A DNA stretch of 45,267 nt from a virus: positions 1 to 45,267 of the IMG/VR virus record IMGVR_UViG_3300046516_000729, one strand, 5' to 3'. The notes below the pieces were generated by a model that saw nothing but the letters and a program-made list of their open reading frames with translations, was not told the origin of the DNA and did no database searches. The number at the start of each line of letters is the position of its first letter. Within the stretch, counting starts at the first letter, position 1. The translations under genes and the position numbers were made by a program. This document shows, piece after piece, positions 2,736-39,105 of the stretch.

Positions 2736-3968
2736 GTGCGCAATCACAAACACTGGCTCAAAGCCTATATGAAGTTCACCTCAGCCTCGGAGAGCCCCGA
2801 TGCGTTTCACTTCTGGGTTGGCGTTGGTACGATTGCTGGCGCTCTACGTCGCCGCGTATGGCTTGATATGCGTCATTTCCAATGGACCCCTAACTTTTAT
2901 ATTATATTGGTTGGTCCTCCAGGTATCGCTAACAAGTCTACTACGGTTCGTATCGGTACTAATTTACTCGAACAAGTCGACGGCATTCACTTTGGACCGC
3001 AGAGTATGACGTGGCAATCGCTCACTCAAACGCTAGAGCAATCTGTCGAGTACATTAAATACATTGACCATAACGGCGACGAACAACTCCAAGCGATGTC
3101 GCCCGTCACTTGTGCCATTCCGGAGTTAGGGACATTTTTGAAAATGGACGACCACGCACTCGTAGACGTACTCATTGCGATGTGGGACGGTCAAATCGAA
3201 ACGTGGGGACATAAGACGAAAACCAGTGGCAATATCGAAATAAAAAATCCGTGGCTCAACATATTGGCATGTACTACGCCAGCGTGGTTAGAGCAAAATT
3301 TCCCTACCTCGATGATTGGAGGCGGCCTCACGTCTCGCATCATGTTCATCTATGGCGACAAAAAACGTCATCTTGTGGCGTATCCCGACGAACAAATCCA
3401 CGCCGCTGATTACGCGTCACAGAAAGCGTTGCTGGTGGAAGACCTCAAACGTATCGCCCTACTGAGTGGCAACTACTTGTTGACACCAGATGCTCGACAG
3501 TGGGGCAAAGACTGGTACGCGAAGCTCTGGCAGTCACGGCCGCCCGACATGGCGAACGATCGCTACTCAGGATATATTTCGAGGAAACAAACACATATCC
3601 ACAAATTGGCAATAGTTCTCGCATCCGCGCAGCGCGACAAACTGTTGATAGAGCAACATGACCTCGAAGAGGCGGACGCTCTCCTCACAACAATCGAACC
3701 ACACATGATTAAGGTCTTCGAATCTGTGGGTGTTGTCGATGAGTCGAAGCATGTGGCGAATATCCTTGCGCATGTTCGGGCCTATGGGTGGATCGAAGCG
3801 ACGCCGTTATTTAATCTACTTCGTAATAACATGACTGAACGAGACTTTAAGAACGCCTTACGTATTGCCGTAGAACAAGGTCTTATTTCGATTGAATCTC
3901 GCGGCTTAAAGCGAGGACTGACGTTGTCGCCTCCCAACGTGACGCCCATCAAAGCCGTTAAGGTGTAA
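2736..3968 (+). CDS. DUF3987-like replicative helicase/ATPase
   Basis: A 410-residue P-loop protein resembling the DUF3987 family that serves as replicative helicase (sometimes primase-helicase) in many phages. The N-terminal HWLKAYMKFT and SPDAFHFWVG...GALRRRVWL region is typical of the family. Walker A is VGPPGIANKST (about 59-69), with a Walker B-like AIPELGTFLK (Glu about 130). The C-terminal part looks like a winged helix. I chose GTG 2736 because AAGGA lies 11 bases upstream and family similarity starts at once; an in-frame GTG at 2682 overlaps the polymerase stop but would begin before a hairpin. It is the last gene of the rightward block, and its stop overlaps the convergent giant-protein gene by 11 nt. 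No separate primase is visible, so priming may be done here or by the host. Confidence 0.85.
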   Translation: MRNHKHWLKAYMKFTSASESPDAFHFWVGVGTIAGALRRRVWLDMRHFQWTPNFYIILVGPPGIANKSTTVRIGTNLLEQVDGIHFGPQSMTWQSLTQTLEQSVEYIKYIDHNGDEQLQAMSPVTCAIPELGTFLKMDDHALVDVLIAMWDGQIETWGHKTKTSGNIEIKNPWLNILACTTPAWLEQNFPTSMIGGGLTSRIMFIYGDKKRHLVAYPDEQIHAADYASQKALLVEDLKRIALLSGNYLLTPDARQWGKDWYAKLWQSRPPDMANDRYSGYISRKQTHIHKLAIVLASAQRDKLLIEQHDLEEADALLTTIEPHMIKVFESVGVVDESKHVANILAHVRAYGWIEATPLFNLLRNNMTERDFKNALRIAVEQGLISIESRGLKRGLTLSPPNVTPIKAVKV

Positions 3969-6900
3969 GATTCGACGGAACCTTCTTAATGGTCCTCTGC
4001 GAATCAGGATACAGTTTGTCCACCTCACGACGGATCGGAATATCCTTCTTGTGAAGCGGAAGTCCCTGCTCCTGTATGATCCGGTCTCGTGCTCTGGTCT
4101 CCACGGATTTCCTCAGCGTATCACTCGATATAGCCTGCCCCTTCGCTTCAGGCGGCAAGTCTCGATTGAAGTTGACTATTGCTTCCCGCACTCTCGCCAC
4201 CTCGGCCGCGTCCTTTCCGATGGCGGCATTACCAAACTGCCTCATAAGGCCCTGCCGTCTAATGTCCCACAACTTACTTGCATCGTTAGTTGCGAGGACT
4301 TTTTCCCACTCCAGGCTCTGTCGATAGGGCGTGTATCCCGCCCCCATGCCGAGGACCTCCATCAACTGCCACGGATCACGAACATCGTATTTGACAATCT
4401 GAGAGCCTGTACTCGTTCGCTCACCACCTTCTGTTCCAACCCTATATGAATGCATGAGTGCGGAGAGACCTCGTGGTACGGCCTTCTCCCATCGCTTAGA
4501 GTCTTTCCAGTCAAGCTGTGTGTTCGTGAGGGCTTTGTAAATATCGAAGCCCGCGCCGAAAATTGCACCCGACGCTTGTTTCGCCTGACCAGCTATAACG
4601 GCGTTCTGATCTTGAGTGGGCGGGCCAAACAGTTTCCCAAGTTCTACCGGCAATAGTGTTCCAGCCGAAATCGACCGCGATCTATCGAATGTAGGCATTC
4701 GAATATCCACACCGACCGTGCCACCTAACATGTCCATGAAAGCGGGAATGCCATAGCCTTTCCGTGAGATACCATGAAGTATCAAATCGGCGTGGTTACG
4801 GCCTTCTGCGTCCTCCCCCGTAAATTGTAGTAACAGCTTCCGTGCTTCTTGATCTAAATCGAAGTCTTTTCCGAACATCCTCCAGCCAATCGCCTTGAGT
4901 ATCTCTTTAAGATCGTCAGCGCCCGGCACACCCATGAGGCCACCCAACGCGCCCATAACGAGAAGACTTCGTACCGCAGCTTGCGGGTAATTCGCGAGGA
5001 ACACAACGTAGTTTTGTATAAACGTCTTAAAGACGAATACCGTTCTCGCCTTCCCACGCATGAACCGTGGAGCGTATTCCCGTCCATACTGGAACTGCGT
5101 GGTAATCGTCGCGTCAATGGCAGCGGTATATGCTCGCGCTTGTGCCTCGGTCCAACCTTCCGCTCGTCGCTGTTCATATGTGAGCTTACGCTTTGCCACA
5201 ACATTGTTGACGTACTTCGCATTTGGATTATCTAGCGCCAACTGAAGCGCGGCGCGGAATATCAGACGCCTGTTGACCTGTTCGGCCATCTCGAACATAC
5301 CAGCGCCCAACTCGTTGAACTTCATTGCGTTACGCTGCAACACGTTCCCACCGAAACCTAGTCCCAACGTATTGCCCTCGGCGAAGCCCGCTAACTCTGG
5401 CGCCTGCGTCTCCTTGATGACGCCATCGGCCATCCCTTGGAACATCGCTTGTTGATCGAACTCTGTTGCATGTTCCAACGTCCCCTTTTTGTAGAAGGTT
5501 GTGAACTTCCTTCCGGCATTCGCCAGCGCCCCGATGGCCCTGACGTCACCAAACTGCTGAGCCAAGAATGGATAACTCGTCATGAGTGTCTGCGTCAAAT
5601 TTTGACCAGCCGCCGCAGGAGAGAACGCCAACGACCAGAGGAACGCCACACTTCGAATGGCGGCCCAATCCGACTTTGGATCGAGCCAATTTTCCAAATG
5701 GTCATTCATATACGACACAATTTCATGCCGCTTCGTAACGTCGTATTGTCCTTTCACTTCGTCACGGGTCATCGCCGTCAACGCGCGGAGACGATCAGCG
5801 TACATCGCCTTCATGAGGTGGTTCGCCCCATGAAAGAAGTAGTTCGCATACGCTCGTCGGAAATCCATCGAGTAACCCGCTGTCCGATTCTTGTGTTGGA
5901 ACCTGTGCTGGAACGATTGGGCAGGACTAAGTTCAAATTTCAACTGCTCCAACGCGTCCCTCTGAAGGGACGACAGATTAAGCTTCTGACTCATCATATC
6001 AAGCAACTGCGTCGGGACGCCCAACAACGGCCTCACCTGACGGTCCATTTTGCCAAGCTGCATGAGGTCTGTCGCCACTTGATACTTACTCTGTATCACC
6101 GCCGCAGCACGATCCCGTGTTCGACGACTCTCAAACGTCTCAAAATGAATAACCTTACCCGCCGCGTCACGAACAGTAATCGTATAGTCGCCGAAACGCA
6201 TCGACGGAAAATAAGGTTGCTTTCGCAGCGCCGCCATCTGTTTATCTATGGCGGCATTGCTCAGTCCACGTTTCGTTTCGTCTGTGATTTTGTTTGCTTC
6301 GTTCCTGAGGACCGCTTCGTATCGTGTGAGGTGTTCTTGGAAGCTGGTGGCAATCTGGCCGAAGACGGCCAGCCCTTGTTGACTGACGCCATGCTTCGTT
6401 GCCAGAGTTTGAAGCTCTTGTGGCGTAGGATGTCGAGACACTTTACGAGCGATTTCATCGGGCGTCCTATATGTCATATTAGTCACGTCATCAATCAGCG
6501 CCGACACGGCGTCAGCCTGACGTTCACCCAACCTGTTCCACGCTTTGAGTATCTCTTGTGCGCGGATCATAACTTGTTGCTTCGTGAGTTGCGCTACAGA
6601 GATGGTTTCAGTATACTCCTGTAAAGGCGCAATACCGAGATTCCTCTGCGCAACTTGATGGAGACCTAATGCCCATTTGTAGAGCCAATTAAACTTGTCC
6701 GCATACGCCATCGTCTCTTTTACTTCTGGCGTCGGATTACCCTTCGTGAGTTTATCAACGGCGTCCTTCGGTACGACGGTCTCCGGCTGCTGCGGCGCAG
6801 GCGTCTCCTCGGGCCCCATCTTCGTCTTATTATCGACGGTGGTTTGATTATTCGTCTCAGCGTTGACCTGCGAGAAAAATTCCGGCGCGCCAGTCGTTCT

Positions 6901-9900
6901 AGAATCCAACCAATCGTTCAACTCTCGTATTGGCTCAAACGGAAGTCCGAATTTTTCCTTCGCCGTACGGAACAAATTCATAATCTTGTTCCCGAGACTC
7001 GAAAAGAATTTCTCCACCAACGACAACGGCTTTTCTCTGCTCGTGCCCCATCGAGCTACTTGTTCCGCAAACCACTCCGTCTTGGACATCCAATAAATTT
7101 TCTTCTTCGGCCCAATCTGACTGAGCAACGTACTTGCGCCGAAATTTCGCATATTCTCCATATTGACGACGGCGTTGTCGCGGTTAGCAATAACAGAGTT
7201 CATTAAGGGATTCTTCCCTTGATCCTCAATGAATTTGTCGTACGCGGCGTCGACTGCGAGTCTCACATTCTGCGGTGCCTTCTGATATGCCGTCCACTCG
7301 ACGACGTGCCCCAACTCGTGAACCATTGTGGCCCAAACACTCTGAGCATTCTTATGCGTACCGACAGAGATGTGTATCTCGTGTGGTCCGCCGAAACCTG
7401 GCTTCGCCAATCCATACGTGTTGGGATATGACCTCGTCTTAAATATCCCCGGCCGATTCGGATTCGCCTCTCTCAGTTTCACGTCTTTCTCATGCAGGAC
7501 GACCTTGACGTCTGTTCCGAGATTGAGTTGCTTTATAAGTTCCTGTAGAGACTCCGTGAGTGGTTGCATCGCCGCGACGCTGTGTGGCGACACCCCCTGA
7601 GCCTCCTCCACTGTTACTTTGCCAGTCGGCTTCTCCGACGTGTGCGTCGGCATACCCGCGTTGATGTAGTCGATACCAGTCTGAGGAATAATCAGTGATC
7701 GGAACCTCGTTGGCTGATTCGGAGTATTACGGCTGATGTAGTCTTGCGCCAACGCCTCCGTAGCTGATATGGCCAAAGGCCGAGGATTCGGCCTATTCGC
7801 GTCGAACACGCCCCACTCGCCAGTCGGAAGTTGTTGCGCCTGATAATTGGGGCCTTCGATGGTTGTGTATCCGGTCGTGCCGCCAAGTCGCTTCGACCAC
7901 CGCTTGACGATCCCTAGCGTCTCACGATTGTAGAATGTTTGCATTCCAACTCGACGTTGATGCAGAGCCTCCGGCGTTGCCGCCGTGGAATACCGTCTCA
8001 TATGTTCGTCGGCGTCGGCCCACGCAACGTGACGTATTCCGTTGTCTGCCGCCCACATCAAAAAGCGTGTGACGCCGAGTTGGTGCCAACTATCCTTGAA
8101 CGGCGCGTCAGGAATCTTTCCTTCTGTCGTCGGACCATACCCGACCTTCTCTCCATATTGGTGAAGATCTGACTGAACCTCCTCAAGTAATGCCATCGGG
8201 TTGCCGTCGAGCGTCTTGCGAATCGTAGCACGAATCGCAACGACGGCATTAGGTTCTGCATAATGACCTCCAACGAAATCCCTCTGCGTCGGATCGCCCG
8301 CGACATTGCGTGACGGCAAATGCATAGTAAGTTCCACATATGCATCCCTCGGACCCGGCGTCGTTTGGTTTTGATACTTCGCCCAATTCCGATCGTCGTT
8401 CAACGCCAGATAGTCGTCATACAACTTCTGCATCTCTGGATGCGCGATGTTATACTGAGTGCCGTTTGCCAGCTTCGCTGTCGGATCACGCTGTGCGACA
8501 GCGTCCATCTGCTGAAGCAATTGAGTTTGCTTCGCCAACTTCGCCCCCGAATCAAGCGGCGTGCGAATAACCTCCTGCATCGTAATCGCATTGGCGTCAA
8601 GATGATCCAACAGGTTCTGCCGCGTCAGCGTCTCACGAGGATCAACACTCATGAGCATCTGACTCAAATTCATATCCTGCATTTCCTCAGACGTAAAGTC
8701 TTTCTGTTGCAGGATCGAATTCCATCTCTGGGCACTCGCTTTATCCGGCCCCTTCTCTTCGACCCACGAGCGGAGACGACTATATAGTCCTTCAACCGGA
8801 ACGCTCTCTGGCAACACCGCAGCTTCCGACGTCACTGGCTCTCCACGAACCTGCGGCACTTCATCGACAGAAATCTGTGGTCCCGTCGGTATCGGTGTCG
8901 GTGCAGCCCCGAGTCCCGGCGTCAATTTGGCGATCGTATGAACGTCAGGTTCCCCCGTCGGCATAACGACTGGCGGCGTCTCCGGTGGAGGTTCGCCTCC
9001 CGTCGTCGGAACATCAGTCGGCGGCCCGCCAGGTTTCTTGAGTGGTAGTCCGTCCAGCCCCTTCATTTGGTCCGCGACAGCTTGAATGTCCTCTGGCGTA
9101 ATCGGGACTCCTTTTGGTCCAGCTTTGCCAGGAAATACCCCTGCACCGCCGCCCATGACGACACCAGTCAACGCGCCACCAACGATGTTCTCTATCGCCG
9201 ACTTTCCAGTTTCTGCCGTCAGGAACGGTTTTCCCGTAACATACGATACCATAGCATTTTTGATGACGTCTTGTATCCCCTCCGTCACGCCTTCGGTTCC
9301 CGCGCCCTTCGCAGCTTCGACGGCGATGCGCTTCGCAATAGCATGATTGAGTTCTGTCTTAGCGGCACTCGTGAAGAACTTGCCCCATATCGTACCCAAC
9401 GACGCCACGTCGAGCGCCGTAATCGGACCAGCGGCTATCGCGGCGTATTTGGCGGAATTCTCTGGCGTAACTTTCTCGTCCTTGAGCGCCTTATACACTT
9501 CGCCATAGTTCAATCCGGCAGACGGAACCGCGGCGCCTGCAAGGCCTCCAGCGACCGTACCAACAGGACCAGCCAGTGACCCGACAACACCACCCGCTGC
9601 GCCAGTGACCATTGAGGGAATACTCGACGCAATGCCTTGTCCCAACATCTCACCGGCCCACGTCGTGACATCGCCAAAGTTCTTGCTATCAAACAATGCT
9701 CCGGCTTTAGTATTATACTCCTCAGGACTACTCTTAGCTAGATCTCTAAGATATTGTGATCCTGTCTGGAGCTTCCCCCTAAGGCTCTCCGGCGCCAAAT
9801 GCGACATACCTTCGAGGGCTTCCGCCATCAGTTCTGGGTTCTGCTTCAACGTCCCAGACACCAACCCGCGCATGAAGGCATTGTGTTCGGGTGGCGGACC

Positions 9901-10158
9901 CTCTGGTGTCGTCGCCGCAGGAGCCGCAGGAGCCGCAGCCGGAACCTCCGGTGGAGGCGGCCCGGCAACGTCTGGCGCAGAACTCCATGGATCATTCGGA
10001 TCAAACGGCGGCTTAGCTGCGACTGGTGTCTCCGTCGGCGCGGTCTGTGCCGTCGTGAATGGCTTATTCGGATCAAACGGAGGCTTGTCTTCGGCCGCAG
10101 CTTGTATGGCCTCAAACGGCTTGCTCGGATCAAACGCTGGCTTTACTTCCTGATCCAT
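3958..10158 (-). CDS. giant internal virion (ejected) protein with metalloprotease motif, 2066 aa
   Basis: By size, position and features this is a podovirus-type internal/ejection protein delivered into the host with the DNA. The N-terminus (1-65) has three FDPxxPF/W repeats in Pro/Ala-rich sequence. Gly/Ala-rich hydrophobic stretches near 172-205 and 320-343 could insert in membranes. A zinc-protease signature HELGH (His947, Glu948, His951) is followed by TEWFAEQVARW, a possible third ligand. Near 1315 the motif PYFPSMRFGDY matches the PLxRFG-type region of large phage internal proteins. A further hydrophobic segment lies near 1695-1730. The start ATG overlaps the previous stop (TAATG). It is the last late gene and ends 11 nt inside the convergent helicase gene. 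Enzymatic activity is inferred from the motif only. Confidence 0.88.
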   Translation of the reverse strand: MDQEVKPAFDPSKPFEAIQAAAEDKPPFDPNKPFTTAQTAPTETPVAAKPPFDPNDPWSSAPDVAGPPPPEVPAAAPAAPAATTPEGPPPEHNAFMRGLVSGTLKQNPELMAEALEGMSHLAPESLRGKLQTGSQYLRDLAKSSPEEYNTKAGALFDSKNFGDVTTWAGEMLGQGIASSIPSMVTGAAGGVVGSLAGPVGTVAGGLAGAAVPSAGLNYGEVYKALKDEKVTPENSAKYAAIAAGPITALDVASLGTIWGKFFTSAAKTELNHAIAKRIAVEAAKGAGTEGVTEGIQDVIKNAMVSYVTGKPFLTAETGKSAIENIVGGALTGVVMGGGAGVFPGKAGPKGVPITPEDIQAVADQMKGLDGLPLKKPGGPPTDVPTTGGEPPPETPPVVMPTGEPDVHTIAKLTPGLGAAPTPIPTGPQISVDEVPQVRGEPVTSEAAVLPESVPVEGLYSRLRSWVEEKGPDKASAQRWNSILQQKDFTSEEMQDMNLSQMLMSVDPRETLTRQNLLDHLDANAITMQEVIRTPLDSGAKLAKQTQLLQQMDAVAQRDPTAKLANGTQYNIAHPEMQKLYDDYLALNDDRNWAKYQNQTTPGPRDAYVELTMHLPSRNVAGDPTQRDFVGGHYAEPNAVVAIRATIRKTLDGNPMALLEEVQSDLHQYGEKVGYGPTTEGKIPDAPFKDSWHQLGVTRFLMWAADNGIRHVAWADADEHMRRYSTAATPEALHQRRVGMQTFYNRETLGIVKRWSKRLGGTTGYTTIEGPNYQAQQLPTGEWGVFDANRPNPRPLAISATEALAQDYISRNTPNQPTRFRSLIIPQTGIDYINAGMPTHTSEKPTGKVTVEEAQGVSPHSVAAMQPLTESLQELIKQLNLGTDVKVVLHEKDVKLREANPNRPGIFKTRSYPNTYGLAKPGFGGPHEIHISVGTHKNAQSVWATMVHELGHVVEWTAYQKAPQNVRLAVDAAYDKFIEDQGKNPLMNSVIANRDNAVVNMENMRNFGASTLLSQIGPKKKIYWMSKTEWFAEQVARWGTSREKPLSLVEKFFSSLGNKIMNLFRTAKEKFGLPFEPIRELNDWLDSRTTGAPEFFSQVNAETNNQTTVDNKTKMGPEETPAPQQPETVVPKDAVDKLTKGNPTPEVKETMAYADKFNWLYKWALGLHQVAQRNLGIAPLQEYTETISVAQLTKQQVMIRAQEILKAWNRLGERQADAVSALIDDVTNMTYRTPDEIARKVSRHPTPQELQTLATKHGVSQQGLAVFGQIATSFQEHLTRYEAVLRNEANKITDETKRGLSNAAIDKQMAALRKQPYFPSMRFGDYTITVRDAAGKVIHFETFESRRTRDRAAAVIQSKYQVATDLMQLGKMDRQVRPLLGVPTQLLDMMSQKLNLSSLQRDALEQLKFELSPAQSFQHRFQHKNRTAGYSMDFRRAYANYFFHGANHLMKAMYADRLRALTAMTRDEVKGQYDVTKRHEIVSYMNDHLENWLDPKSDWAAIRSVAFLWSLAFSPAAAGQNLTQTLMTSYPFLAQQFGDVRAIGALANAGRKFTTFYKKGTLEHATEFDQQAMFQGMADGVIKETQAPELAGFAEGNTLGLGFGGNVLQRNAMKFNELGAGMFEMAEQVNRRLIFRAALQLALDNPNAKYVNNVVAKRKLTYEQRRAEGWTEAQARAYTAAIDATITTQFQYGREYAPRFMRGKARTVFVFKTFIQNYVVFLANYPQAAVRSLLVMGALGGLMGVPGADDLKEILKAIGWRMFGKDFDLDQEARKLLLQFTGEDAEGRNHADLILHGISRKGYGIPAFMDMLGGTVGVDIRMPTFDRSRSISAGTLLPVELGKLFGPPTQDQNAVIAGQAKQASGAIFGAGFDIYKALTNTQLDWKDSKRWEKAVPRGLSALMHSYRVGTEGGERTSTGSQIVKYDVRDPWQLMEVLGMGAGYTPYRQSLEWEKVLATNDASKLWDIRRQGLMRQFGNAAIGKDAAEVARVREAIVNFNRDLPPEAKGQAISSDTLRKSVETRARDRIIQEQGLPLHKKDIPIRREVDKLYPDSQRTIKKVPSNLTP

Positions 10159-15526: not shown

Positions 15527-16483
15527 TTAGTCTCCTTCAGTGTATGGGAATATAACTTCTACTTCGTCGTCAGTCTCCAGCCCCAAGTCCTTCATAAGTG
15601 ACGGACTAATGTCCGCCACCCGTCCCGTTTTTTCGTGCGGCCCCCAATCCGCCGGGAACGCCGTCAACGCAACTCCAGATCGCACACTTCTAACCAACGC
15701 CACACCACTGAGTAGCATCGAGTGTGGCGTTTTATCATAGTTCCACCGACACGCAATATAGTGGACGTGCGGATTAAGTCTCCTCGCGAGACCACTGGTA
15801 TCCTCTGGCTGGAACGGCAAGAACAGATGCTCCGCCTGTTCTATCTGCTGAATGAATGCTAATCCTTCATCCTCAGACACTCCCGTATCATCGGGCCCGC
15901 CAAACCACGAAACACTTCCAATCAACGCCACCAGCGGCGCATCAGTCGTTGGCGGTGACGGGGCGACGTCAGAATCTCCATACAACGCACCCGCAATAGC
16001 GAGGCAGACATCGTGGAAGTTTTTATCATACACCTGTGCGTCAGACTCGGAATCCACGAAACACACCTCAATGAGTATCGCAGGCTCACTCGTGTTGTTG
16101 AGGAAAAATAAATCAGTTCGTTTCTTCGCCCCGCGATTTACAAAGCCACAACTCGCAATCGCCAACGACACCTGACTGGCAAGTTCGTTTTGTGTCACGT
16201 ACAACACCTCAGTGCCCATCGGCTTCGTCGTCTCAACATAAGCATTGAAGTGGACAGAGACATCTAAGTCTCTCTCATGCATATTGTGAAAATCCACAAT
16301 CCGATTAAGATTCTCGTTCTGCGTCGTAGAAATATCGTCATGATACGTCGTGACTTCAACGTGAGCATCGCGGAGGCATATTGCAACCTCCTCGACAACC
16401 CTTCTGGCTTCATCGACCTCATCAATGACGCCACTGGCCCCACGAACAAACTTCCCGTGCCCCGACGACATAATGATATTCAT
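15527..16483 (-). CDS. endolysin: N-acetylmuramoyl-L-alanine amidase (Amidase_3) with C-terminal domain
   Basis: 318 residues from ATG 16483 (an in-frame TTG lies one codon earlier). It cleaves the amide bond between muramic acid and the peptide stem of peptidoglycan. Amidase_3 zinc ligands are visible: His9 in SSGHGK, Glu22 in VIDEVDE, His78 in DVSVHFNA, with catalytic Glu139 in AILIEVCF. After a Pro-rich linker (about 178-185), the C-terminal domain has TAFPADWGPHEKTGRVADIS and LGLETDDEVEVI, resembling a double-psi barrel seen fused to phage amidases, possibly for wall binding. No signal peptide, so export needs the holin. The start overlaps the holin stop (TGATG). Confidence 0.93.
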   Translation of the reverse strand: MNIIMSSGHGKFVRGASGVIDEVDEARRVVEEVAICLRDAHVEVTTYHDDISTTQNENLNRIVDFHNMHERDLDVSVHFNAYVETTKPMGTEVLYVTQNELASQVSLAIASCGFVNRGAKKRTDLFFLNNTSEPAILIEVCFVDSESDAQVYDKNFHDVCLAIAGALYGDSDVAPSPPTTDAPLVALIGSVSWFGGPDDTGVSEDEGLAFIQQIEQAEHLFLPFQPEDTSGLARRLNPHVHYIACRWNYDKTPHSMLLSGVALVRSVRSGVALTAFPADWGPHEKTGRVADISPSLMKDLGLETDDEVEVIFPYTEGD

Positions 16484-16647
16484 CAATGTACTCCCGCAAC
16501 TCTACCAAGCCCGCCAATCAACTCACTCGCGATCCACAACGCAATCGCCATCGGAAGCAAGCTCCACGCGCCCACCGCACCGATCCGCGTCGCAATACAC
16601 GCGATTACGAACGCGAACACCAGAAGTATCAAACCGAGATTCGCCAT
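16483..16647 (-). CDS. putative holin, 54 aa, two membrane segments
   Basis: A short gene with a near-perfect ribosome-binding site (AGGAGGAAATT before the ATG). The product begins MANLGLILLVFAFVIACIAT, giving a first membrane helix; a second is formed by WSLLPMAIALWIASELIGG, and the tail GLGRVAGVH is short. Its stop overlaps the amidase start by one base. Small size, two hydrophobic helices and coupling to the endolysin make it the best holin candidate. The alternative is an antiholin, with the gene upstream as the holin. Confidence 0.8.
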   Translation of the reverse strand: MANLGLILLVFAFVIACIATRIGAVGAWSLLPMAIALWIASELIGGLGRVAGVH

Positions 16648-37486: not shown

Positions 37487-37506
37487 GGAAACTTCGAAAA
37501 TAACAC

Positions 37507-37535
37507 TTGACAGCGTTTCGACATAGGGTTAATCT
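37507..37535 (+). promoter_or_regulatory. promoter candidate for the secreted-protein cassette
   Basis: A perfect -35 box TTGACA (37507-37512), 17-bp spacer, and a weak -10 TAATCT (37530-37535). Transcription would start at about 37541, inside the left arm of hairpin copy 4. Confidence 0.55.
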
Positions 37536-37536
37536 A

Positions 37537-37566
37537 TGGGCGGTTAACGCAACTGTTAACTGCCCA
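37537..37566 (+). repeat. TGGGCGGTTAAC hairpin, copy 4
   Basis: Arms TGGGCGGTTAAC (37537-37548) and GTTAACTGCCCA (37555-37566), 6-nt loop, one position that would be G-U in RNA. It lies between the promoter candidate and the ribosome-binding site of the next gene, 20 bases before the ATG, the same distance as copy 1 to its gene. Confidence 0.88.
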
Positions 37567-37586
37567 CTTCCACACAAGGAGACCAT

Positions 37587-38258
37587 ATGAAGCGCCTTTT
37601 ATTAATGTCTACTGCCTTAATTGCATTAACGGCGGGAACCCCCGCCAAGGCCGACGTCGTCATCGACCCGCATCTGAGCGGCACCGGCGACAACGTGGTG
37701 TTCGACAGCTTCAACAGCGTCACCAACGTCGCTGTTGGCAGCTTCAACGGCACCCATACCGGTCTCGTTGACTTCAGTTGCTTGGGTGGTTGCGGTGGCT
37801 TCACCGGCGCCGCCAATGGCAACGACATCAAGATCGCCGACACCAACGACTTGAAAGTTCAAGTCTTCAACAGTGCTGGCACCCTCGTACTGCCCACTGC
37901 CACCGACGTGTTCTCGCTCAAAGGCAGCGGTGACGCAACAGCAATCGTGGTTGCCAACGAAATCGGCGGCGGCACCATGCTGTTCACGTTTGACCTCGGA
38001 ATGCTGAGCGCCTCTGCTCAGTCCGGGTTCACCCTGAGCGCCATCAACGGCGAAACGATCGACTCATTCAGGGTCGTCACAACCGGTAACATCACCGACT
38101 TCGAACACTATCGTATCGACATCGCGACACCCACCGTTGCTGTTCCCGGCCCCATCGTGGGCGCTGGTATTCCCGGCCTACTCAGCGGAGCTTTAAGTTT
38201 GCTCAGTCTGAATTTCTGGCGTCGTTGGCGGCGTAACAACGGCGTACTGACCACGTAA
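37587..38258 (+). CDS. secreted protein with PEP-CTERM-like sorting tail
   Basis: 223 residues with a strong ACAAGGAGA site. Signal peptide MKRLLLMSTALIALTAGTPAKA, cleavage after AKA. The body is Gly/Asn/Asp-rich and beta-type. The C-terminus has the tripartite sorting plan of PEP-CTERM-like proteins: VPGPIVGAGIPGL, a hydrophobic stretch (LSGALSLLSLNF), and an Arg cluster (WRRWRR). Hosts use such tails for exosortase-type processing and surface display. With its promoter and different base composition, it looks like a moron taken from a bacterium. Possible roles are surface masking or receptor blocking (inference). Confidence 0.85.
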   Translation: MKRLLLMSTALIALTAGTPAKADVVIDPHLSGTGDNVVFDSFNSVTNVAVGSFNGTHTGLVDFSCLGGCGGFTGAANGNDIKIADTNDLKVQVFNSAGTLVLPTATDVFSLKGSGDATAIVVANEIGGGTMLFTFDLGMLSASAQSGFTLSAINGETIDSFRVVTTGNITDFEHYRIDIATPTVAVPGPIVGAGIPGLLSGALSLLSLNFWRRWRRNNGVLTT

Positions 38259-38317
38259 GGGGACACGTCCCCCACGTCCTCGCTCTCTGTCCTCACACCT
38301 CTCAGGAGTAACTACCA

Positions 38318-38869
38318 ATGAACCTAAAACGATTACTACTTGGTACCGTCGCGCTGCTCGCTCTTACCGGCGCAGGCAACGCGAACACCATCCAAGACTT
38401 CGGTCTTGATCCTACCTCCGCTACTGGTGCCTTCAATCATTCGCTGGGCACTAGCACGTCATTCTTTGACGACCAGTATACATTCACGTTGGACCACTCG
38501 ATGACGCTGACGATCGCCTCAGTGACCAACGTGTTTGCTCAACCATCTGACTTCATCACTAGCTTCACCGGAGCGGTGTTCGCCGGTACTCCGGCATTGC
38601 CGGGAGCAGAAATCATTGGCCCTGTTTTGGCGACATCACCTTGCCAGTTCATTGCGAGCTGTCAGGGCTTCGCAGGCAGCGCCATCCTTGGTCCGGGGAG
38701 CTACTTCCTCGACATCAGCGGCACGGCCGGGGGAACCAGCGGCTACGGGGGCAACCTCGCCACCTTCGCCGTCGCGGTCCCCGGTCCCATCGTCGGAGCG
38801 GGACTTCCCGGCCTGATCGCGGCTTGCATGGGCCTGTTCGGAATAAACCGCTGGCGGCGGCGCACCTGA
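38318..38869 (+). CDS. secreted protein with PEP-CTERM-like tail, second
   Basis: 183 residues, CAGGAG before the ATG. Signal peptide MNLKRLLLGTVALLALTGAG, cleavage near NAN. The body has FFDDQYTFTLDHSMTLTIASV and GPGSYFLDISGTAGG, patterns common in PEP-CTERM-type surface proteins. The tail VPGPIVGAGLPGLIAACMGL followed by INRWRRRT matches the upstream gene. One Cys pair (SPCQFIASCQ) could form a disulfide outside the cytoplasm. It is related to its neighbour only through the signal and sorting ends. Confidence 0.85.
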   Translation: MNLKRLLLGTVALLALTGAGNANTIQDFGLDPTSATGAFNHSLGTSTSFFDDQYTFTLDHSMTLTIASVTNVFAQPSDFITSFTGAVFAGTPALPGAEIIGPVLATSPCQFIASCQGFAGSAILGPGSYFLDISGTAGGTSGYGGNLATFAVAVPGPIVGAGLPGLIAACMGLFGINRWRRRT

Positions 38870-38871
38870 GC

Positions 38872-39105
38872 GTGCGGATCAAAATCCCGCTTCCAGTCGT
38901 CAGAGCCGCAGACTGCTTTGGCGACTGGTTGAACGTCATCCTGATCCGGCGCGGTCGGTTGGTCGTCCGATGGGTCGACATCATTGTCGGCGCGATAGGG
39001 ACAATCAACGTGATCTGGTGGTACGAGGTCGCTGGCTGGTGGGGCGCGCTGGAGGGTGTTCTGATGTTCGTCCTCGTCACGATGATCGTCGTTTGGTTTT
39101 TTTAG
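38872..39105 (+). CDS. small membrane protein of the secreted cassette
   Basis: 77 residues from GTG 38872, two bases after the previous stop. WVDIIVGAIGTINVIWWYEVA and GALEGVLMFVLVTMIVVWFF are two membrane segments, the second ending the protein. No good ribosome-binding site, so translation would depend on coupling. The base composition matches the two secreted genes, and it likely travelled with them. An exosortase it is not: too short and lacking catalytic Cys/Arg/His. Confidence 0.6.
   Translation: MRIKIPLPVVRAADCFGDWLNVILIRRGRLVVRWVDIIVGAIGTINVIWWYEVAGWWGALEGVLMFVLVTMIVVWFF

Follow-up and report, generated by a model that had tools for sequence, protein, structure and literature searches.

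Phage genes for secreted proteins with exchangeable PEP-CTERM-class C-terminal tails

The virus record IMGVR_UViG_3300046516_000729, analysed here over 45,267 bases (hereafter the window), carries two tandem genes, P1 and P2, for secreted proteins that end in a C-terminal sorting tail, followed by a third gene, P3, for a small membrane protein. By the features that Haft et al. (2006; PMC1569441) described for PEP-CTERM substrates, namely a signal peptide, no other helix, a Pro motif, a hydrophobic helix and a basic C-terminal cluster, the predicted P1 and P2 products are PEP-CTERM-class sorting-tail proteins with a variant motif. Relatives occur in more than 100 other viral sequences, so viruses probably exploit a bacterial route of surface delivery. 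We estimate a probability of roughly 60% that a C-terminal sorting route of the host brings these phage proteins to the infected cell's envelope or matrix.

Results

The cassette and its surroundings

By its gene content the window is clearly a phage. No close relatives were found among named phage genomes, whether by DNA or by protein. The P1-P3 cassette shares its strand with the replication and non-structural genes, whereas every structural gene recognised in the window is on the other one (Table 1). The "lytic" label of the first-pass annotation is at most putative: the window contains no tyrosine integrase, but one is present in 8 of 48 viral records bearing the P1 family.

Two other genes of this phage deserve mention. 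After P1, the gene that most often recurs in the other phages with P1 is the endolysin, at 47-64% identity, a sign that these phages may share a type of host envelope. The 2066-aa protein matches both DarB-like antirestriction and virion structural families; it is a candidate for a large protein that is carried in the virion and serves host takeover.

Table 1. Position of the cassette, its elements and other phage genes in the window.
Feature	Position	Strand	Remarks
DNA polymerase, primase/helicase, exonuclease, ParB-like/DNA methyltransferase		+	Phage genes of the window
Terminase, head, tail fibre, endolysin, 2066-aa DarB-like protein		-	Phage genes of the window
2066-aa DarB-like protein	3958-10158	-
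Endolysin	15527-16486	-	About 21 kb from the P1-P3 cassette
Promoter candidate TTGACA-17-TAATCT	37507..37535	+	Read from sequence; weak
Leader hairpin, 12 bp, GTTAAC arms	37537..37566	+	Immediately precedes the P1 ribosome-binding site; RNA fold z = -2.7
P1, secreted beta-sandwich protein with GAGLPG-type tail	37587..38258	+	223 aa; relatives, structure model, dN/dS
P1 sorting tail VPGPIVGAGIPGL-LSGALSLLSLNF-WRRWRR (motif, hydrophobic helix, Arg cluster)	38142..38255	+	Sequence; helix in model
P2, secreted protein resembling the FxDxF PEP-CTERM family	38318..38869	+	183 aa; NF038126 match, viral relatives
P2 sorting tail VPGPIVGAGLPGL-IAACMGLFGI-NRWRRR (motif, hydrophobic helix, Arg cluster)	38777..38866	+	Sequence
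P3, two-helix membrane protein	38872..39105	+	77 aa; GTG start 2 nt past the P2 stop

The signals claimed earlier for the region upstream of P1 held to different degrees. The TTGACA box is present, but its -10 element (TAATCT, 17-nt spacer) is poor, the pair did not reach the cut-off used in the promoter scan and it is not conserved in relatives. The leader hairpin is real in the window phage, but it is not clearly conserved: hairpins of at least 10 bp were found in 12% of 50 P1 leaders versus 5.5% at other ORFs, a mild difference with too few cases to support a claim, on which grounds a conserved regulatory leader in the P1 family was rejected. Some P1 relatives have other leader hairpins, which are not significantly commoner than at other genes. 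As to the "foreign composition" of the cassette, a shift exists (GC 57-60% against 54 +/- 3%) and the GC3 of P3 lies about 3 s.d. above the mean, but for P1 and P2 the GC3 excess is a modest 1.4-2 s.d., which makes composition weak evidence.

P1 is a mobile gene of a virus-specific family

The architecture first proposed for the two tandem genes, a signal peptide and the motif VPGPIVGAG(I/L)PGL with a hydrophobic segment and clustered Arg residues behind it, was confirmed in both P1 and P2. Signal-peptidase-I-type sites can be read in the sequences of P1 (..PAKA|DVV) and P2 (..GNA|NT), and no membrane helix lies between signal peptide and tail in either protein, as judged from the sequences and the P1 model. 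Among the P1 homologues, a signal-peptidase-I-like site was found in 72 of 73 and a lipobox-like Cys in one. The structure predicted for P1, of high confidence (pLDDT 89.6), shows a beta-sandwich and, after it, a C-terminal helix. Its fold matches, to carbohydrate-binding modules and FlaA1, are weak (TM below 0.5), and the assignment of a function from the fold was rejected for this reason.

A scan of viral contigs with P1 retrieved 86 relatives, and at least 140 were obtained when the family alignment was used. The same alignment gave one match only in 84,980 cellular species, in a scan that used two short peptide patterns and could therefore miss distant cellular relatives. This match (L091:1253-1357), in a MAG labelled Rhizobium, is a stretch of some 35 codons that resembles the P1 N-terminus and opens an unrelated autotransporter-like region; its DNA identity exceeds 90% across part of its length, and it looks like a transfer relic or an assembly artefact. 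By these scans the P1 family appears to be virus-specific. It also appears to be mobile: most of the whole P1-bearing contigs (n = 29) share with the window just P1, sometimes with P2 or P3 matches, and the endolysin, which indicates that the P1 gene moves between otherwise unrelated phages. The description of the cassette as a moron is thereby borne out, as its genes are phage genes and P1 is common to phages that share little else. The dN/dS values of P1 and P2 against their relatives (0.08-0.2) denote purifying selection on the cores.

The C-terminal tail is an exchangeable module

The motif VPGPxxGAGxPG, used as a degenerate DNA pattern, was found in at least 119 places in viral contigs. 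Among the matches listed (80 loci), VPxPxxGAGxPG lies 27-40 residues from the stop codon in all 87 complete ORFs, and the ORFs with the GAGxPG motif fall, by their core sequences, into a dozen or so clusters, an approximate figure obtained by single linkage. The tails of the window reach the cut-off of no curated PEP-CTERM or variant model, and P1 gave no match to these models. Three tail classes were observed in the P1 homologues, GAGLPG, VPE(P/T/A)xTW-AMM and (V/T)PLPA. The Pfam PEP-CTERM model PF07589 matched 14 of 45 P1-family members (6e-9), PEPxxWA-CTERM (NF035944) matched tails of P1 homologues at 4e-9, and VPLPA-CTERM (TIGR03370) reached 5e-5 in P1 homologues and 5e-8 in relatives of P2, all of these being E-values and not calls against a cut-off for each member.

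Changes of tail class were mapped on a tree of 73 P1 cores from which the tails had been left out. At least 13 changes were counted; when only branches with strong support are considered, no fewer than four remain necessary for the GAG and PEP labels and two for VPLPA. The nearest relative of the window P1 (L025) has a VPETATW tail and agrees with the window protein in 86-87% of the core but in 21% of the tail; conversely, in a second pair of proteins (L020 and L152) the tails agree in 91% and the cores in 46%. Judged by sequence, then, the tail is an exchangeable sorting module, and one type of core carries GAGLPG, VPEPxTW or VPLPA tails. Hybrid tails were also observed at two loci (L067:214-906 and L086:7950-8642), where VPGPVAGVPEPxTW joins the start of the GAG motif to the PEP-CTERM motif.

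Up to three unrelated tail proteins were encoded by one phage. Different tail proteins of the same contig were of the same class in 20 of 21 contigs, compared with 8.6 expected by shuffling, the classes and partner proteins having been curated by hand. This agreement was never reached in 20,000 shuffles, in which the related contigs were not independent of phylogeny; a phylogeny-corrected test was left with two independent pairs only and had no power. The classes disagree only in a contig of 80 kb, which encodes a GAG protein and a PEP protein.

P2 and P3

The core of the window P2 matches NF038126, the NCBIfam model of the FxDxF family of PEP-CTERM proteins, with an E-value of 2.8e-10. All 12 aligned members of the P2 family match this model, the best at 2e-17, which likens them to that family; the window P2 differs from it in its score, 40.7 bits against the curated cut-off of 50, and in its tail motif. 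The only other match, to IPTL-CTERM, is below the cut-off. Eight viral relatives of P2 were detected by scan. The predicted structure of P2 is poor and provided no function from its fold.

The two-helix membrane protein downstream, as the first-pass annotation had it, proved to be a real and recurrent member of the cassette. Of 30 whole contigs, for which the presence of P1 was the sole criterion of choice, ten contain P3-like ORFs (nine with E below 1e-18 and one at 4e-3). Each of these ORFs follows a tail gene of the same strand at a distance of 5-984 bp, and none was found elsewhere in those contigs. A tail gene also lies upstream, by 233-236 bp, at three mutually close loci that came from a P3 query alone. 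Cassettes with P3 are of the GAG class and, in some cases, of the VPLPA class, whereas no pure VPEP cassette in the whole contigs had P3 next to it. It was by profile searches that P3 could be recognised as a family. A search of viral contigs with the window P3 alone gave no relative, conservation in the family alignment is low, and profile searches in Pfam or PHROGs found almost nothing that matches the family, for which there is no Pfam model.

Exosortases have about eight helices and conserved Cys, Arg and His residues. P3 was rejected as an exosortase, being a protein of 77 aa with two helices and an alignment lacking conserved Cys or His.

Cellular carriers of the tail and the sorting enzyme

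No exosortase (TIGR02602) was detected in 47 viral records, so that any sorting must be carried out by the host. GAGLPG tails are rare in cellular genomes, and the exact pattern was absent from 385 Alphaproteobacteria. With a tail profile, part of the candidates being scored in each genome so that the counts are lower bounds, at least 8 of 249 genomes were positive in the family of the MAG with the P1-like stretch, two of them strongly, with six and two copies, and at least 4 of 397 in the order. The exosortase domain PF09721 was present in 6 of the 249 genomes, but the carriers of strong GAGLPG tails, which include fragmented assemblies, gave no match to it; co-occurrence of exosortase and GAGLPG tails was thus not seen in this family.

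The first-pass annotation had proposed that the host be checked for similar proteins and for an exosortase-like enzyme. In Rhizobiales-type genomes with strong GAGLPG tails the former were found, and an exosortase was not detected. One genome (G584; loci L383, L384 and L386) encodes several secreted GAGLPG proteins, three of which are 46-62% identical to tail proteins of P1-bearing phages, and PF09721 was not detected in it; this genome possibly has an unrecognised sorting system. For the GAGLPG genomes as a group, either such an enzyme exists, or the assemblies are incomplete and lack the exosortase gene for that reason, or the tail serves there as nothing more than an anchor. The GAGLPG-tailed cellular proteins point to a Rhizobiales-type host, as a lead and not as an identification.

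Two further genomes of the order Rhizobiales without PF09721 (G899 and G933; loci L393, L394, L396 and L397) encode secreted proteins of small size whose C-terminus reads VPGP(I/V)AGAGLP-helix-RRRR, a tail related to the GAGLPG type that lacks the second PG. A frameshifted remnant of a VPGPIVGAGLPGL...WRRRR tail was found in an 8.2-Mb cellular genome (G512, L253:1201-1663).

Discussion

P1 and P2 are like the substrates of the PEP-CTERM/exosortase (EpsH) system of Gram-negative bacteria in their signal peptide, Pro motif, helix and basic C-terminus, and also in having cores without known homology; the models of the PEP-CTERM, PEPxxWA and VPLPA variants match tails of P1 homologues. They differ from that system in that they are encoded by a phage and that the window tails stay below all model cut-offs, and no exosortase was found either in the phages or in the genomes with strong GAGLPG tails. 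The PEP-CTERM-like route proposed for the cassette is partly supported: tails of homologues match PF07589, PEPxxWA and VPLPA, but for the GAGLPG class of the window phage, whose strong cellular carriers have no detected exosortase, the enzyme may be a different one.

The possibility that the tails are plain inner-membrane anchors, with P1/P2 kept on the periplasmic side of that membrane and acting there with P3 as an injection block for superinfection exclusion or as an envelope device that involves neither cleavage nor surface delivery, would agree with the missing exosortase in genomes with strong GAGLPG tails and with a two-helix protein of inner-membrane type directly downstream, and a tail helix with a basic end does suffice as a stop-transfer anchor. 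An anchor, however, needs neither a Pro/Gly motif at a fixed distance of 27-40 residues from the C-terminus nor agreement of class within one phage, and the exchange among exactly the recognised classes of sorting tail would be left unexplained. We regard this explanation as unlikely, although it keeps some weight. Unimolecular spanins are lysis proteins with a lipobox, a beta-rich periplasmic part and a C-terminal membrane helix joining two membranes. The general layout of P1 (export signal, beta-rich part, C-terminal transmembrane helix) fits such a protein, but P1 was rejected as a unimolecular spanin on the lipobox count (one of 73 homologues). Neither is there a link to lysis genes, the window endolysin being distant and on the other strand. 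Up to three unrelated tail proteins occur in one phage, and a spanin has no need of sorting motifs that fall into classes; the probability left for this role is minimal.

A role as virion components, such as decoration proteins exported or attached to capsid or tail, might be read into some weak fold matches to phage tail proteins and carbohydrate-binding modules. It is hard to reconcile with the signal peptides and C-terminal anchors of P1 and P2, with a cassette placed opposite the structural genes or with a P1 gene that moves between phages with unrelated virion genes, and is considered very improbable. We give equally little credence to the view that PEP-CTERM genes of bacteria were picked up by chance, or that bacterial DNA was wrongly filed under viruses, with no function for the phage. 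P2 does come close to a PEP-CTERM family of bacteria, cellular homologues exist for some tail proteins and a few tail-bearing IMG/VR fragments may indeed be bacterial; the window, however, is clearly phage and P1 virus-specific by scan, and the low dN/dS, the repeated exchange of tails and the linkage of P3 argue for selection in phages.

Delivery by the host sorting route is thus the reading that we prefer. During infection, P1 and P2 would cross the inner membrane by Sec and be held there by the C-terminal tail, until a host intramembrane sorting enzyme cuts it off, presumably an exosortase for VPEP and VPLPA tails and another enzyme for GAGLPG. The cut proteins would be passed to the outer envelope or the exopolysaccharide matrix, where they would change the surface of the infected cell to the benefit of the phage, and P3 may be a membrane partner in this scheme. 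Candidate effects are the exclusion of other phages, a smaller loss of progeny to bound matrix and the remodelling of the matrix; the blocking of competitor adsorption, which the first-pass annotation had put forward, is one of several possibilities. As a bacterial parallel, PEP-CTERM proteins together with exopolysaccharide are reported to be necessary for floc formation (PMC9012009). A wider proposal, to which we give somewhat less than even odds, is that phages have adopted the Gram-negative sorting code as a widespread and mobile strategy, in which the virus-specific beta-sandwich family swaps its tail to fit the enzyme of the current host, the GAGLPG enzyme is an unrecognised one and P3 is a dedicated partner.

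Surface-modifying and superinfection-exclusion morons such as P22 SieA and gtrABC encode inner-membrane or O-antigen-modifying proteins. The P1 cassette is like them in being accessory, located outside the structural block, mobile between phages and, as predicted, directed to the envelope. We know of no superinfection-exclusion moron that uses a host C-terminal sorting tail. Titles and abstracts, with most subscription journals and bioRxiv outside the scope of the search, contained no earlier report of phage-encoded PEP-CTERM-class substrates. The tail class and surface-altering morons are each known; as far as we found, a mobile and virus-specific family that combines the two is new.

The occurrence of the GAGLPG class in Rhizobiales-type genomes where no exosortase was detected suggests a sorting enzyme that has so far escaped recognition, and the tail swaps are natural experiments on recognition by each sorting enzyme. 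If the proteins do reach the surface, infected bacteria would wear surface proteins made by the virus, which would have consequences for the adsorption of other phages, for aggregation and for biofilm.
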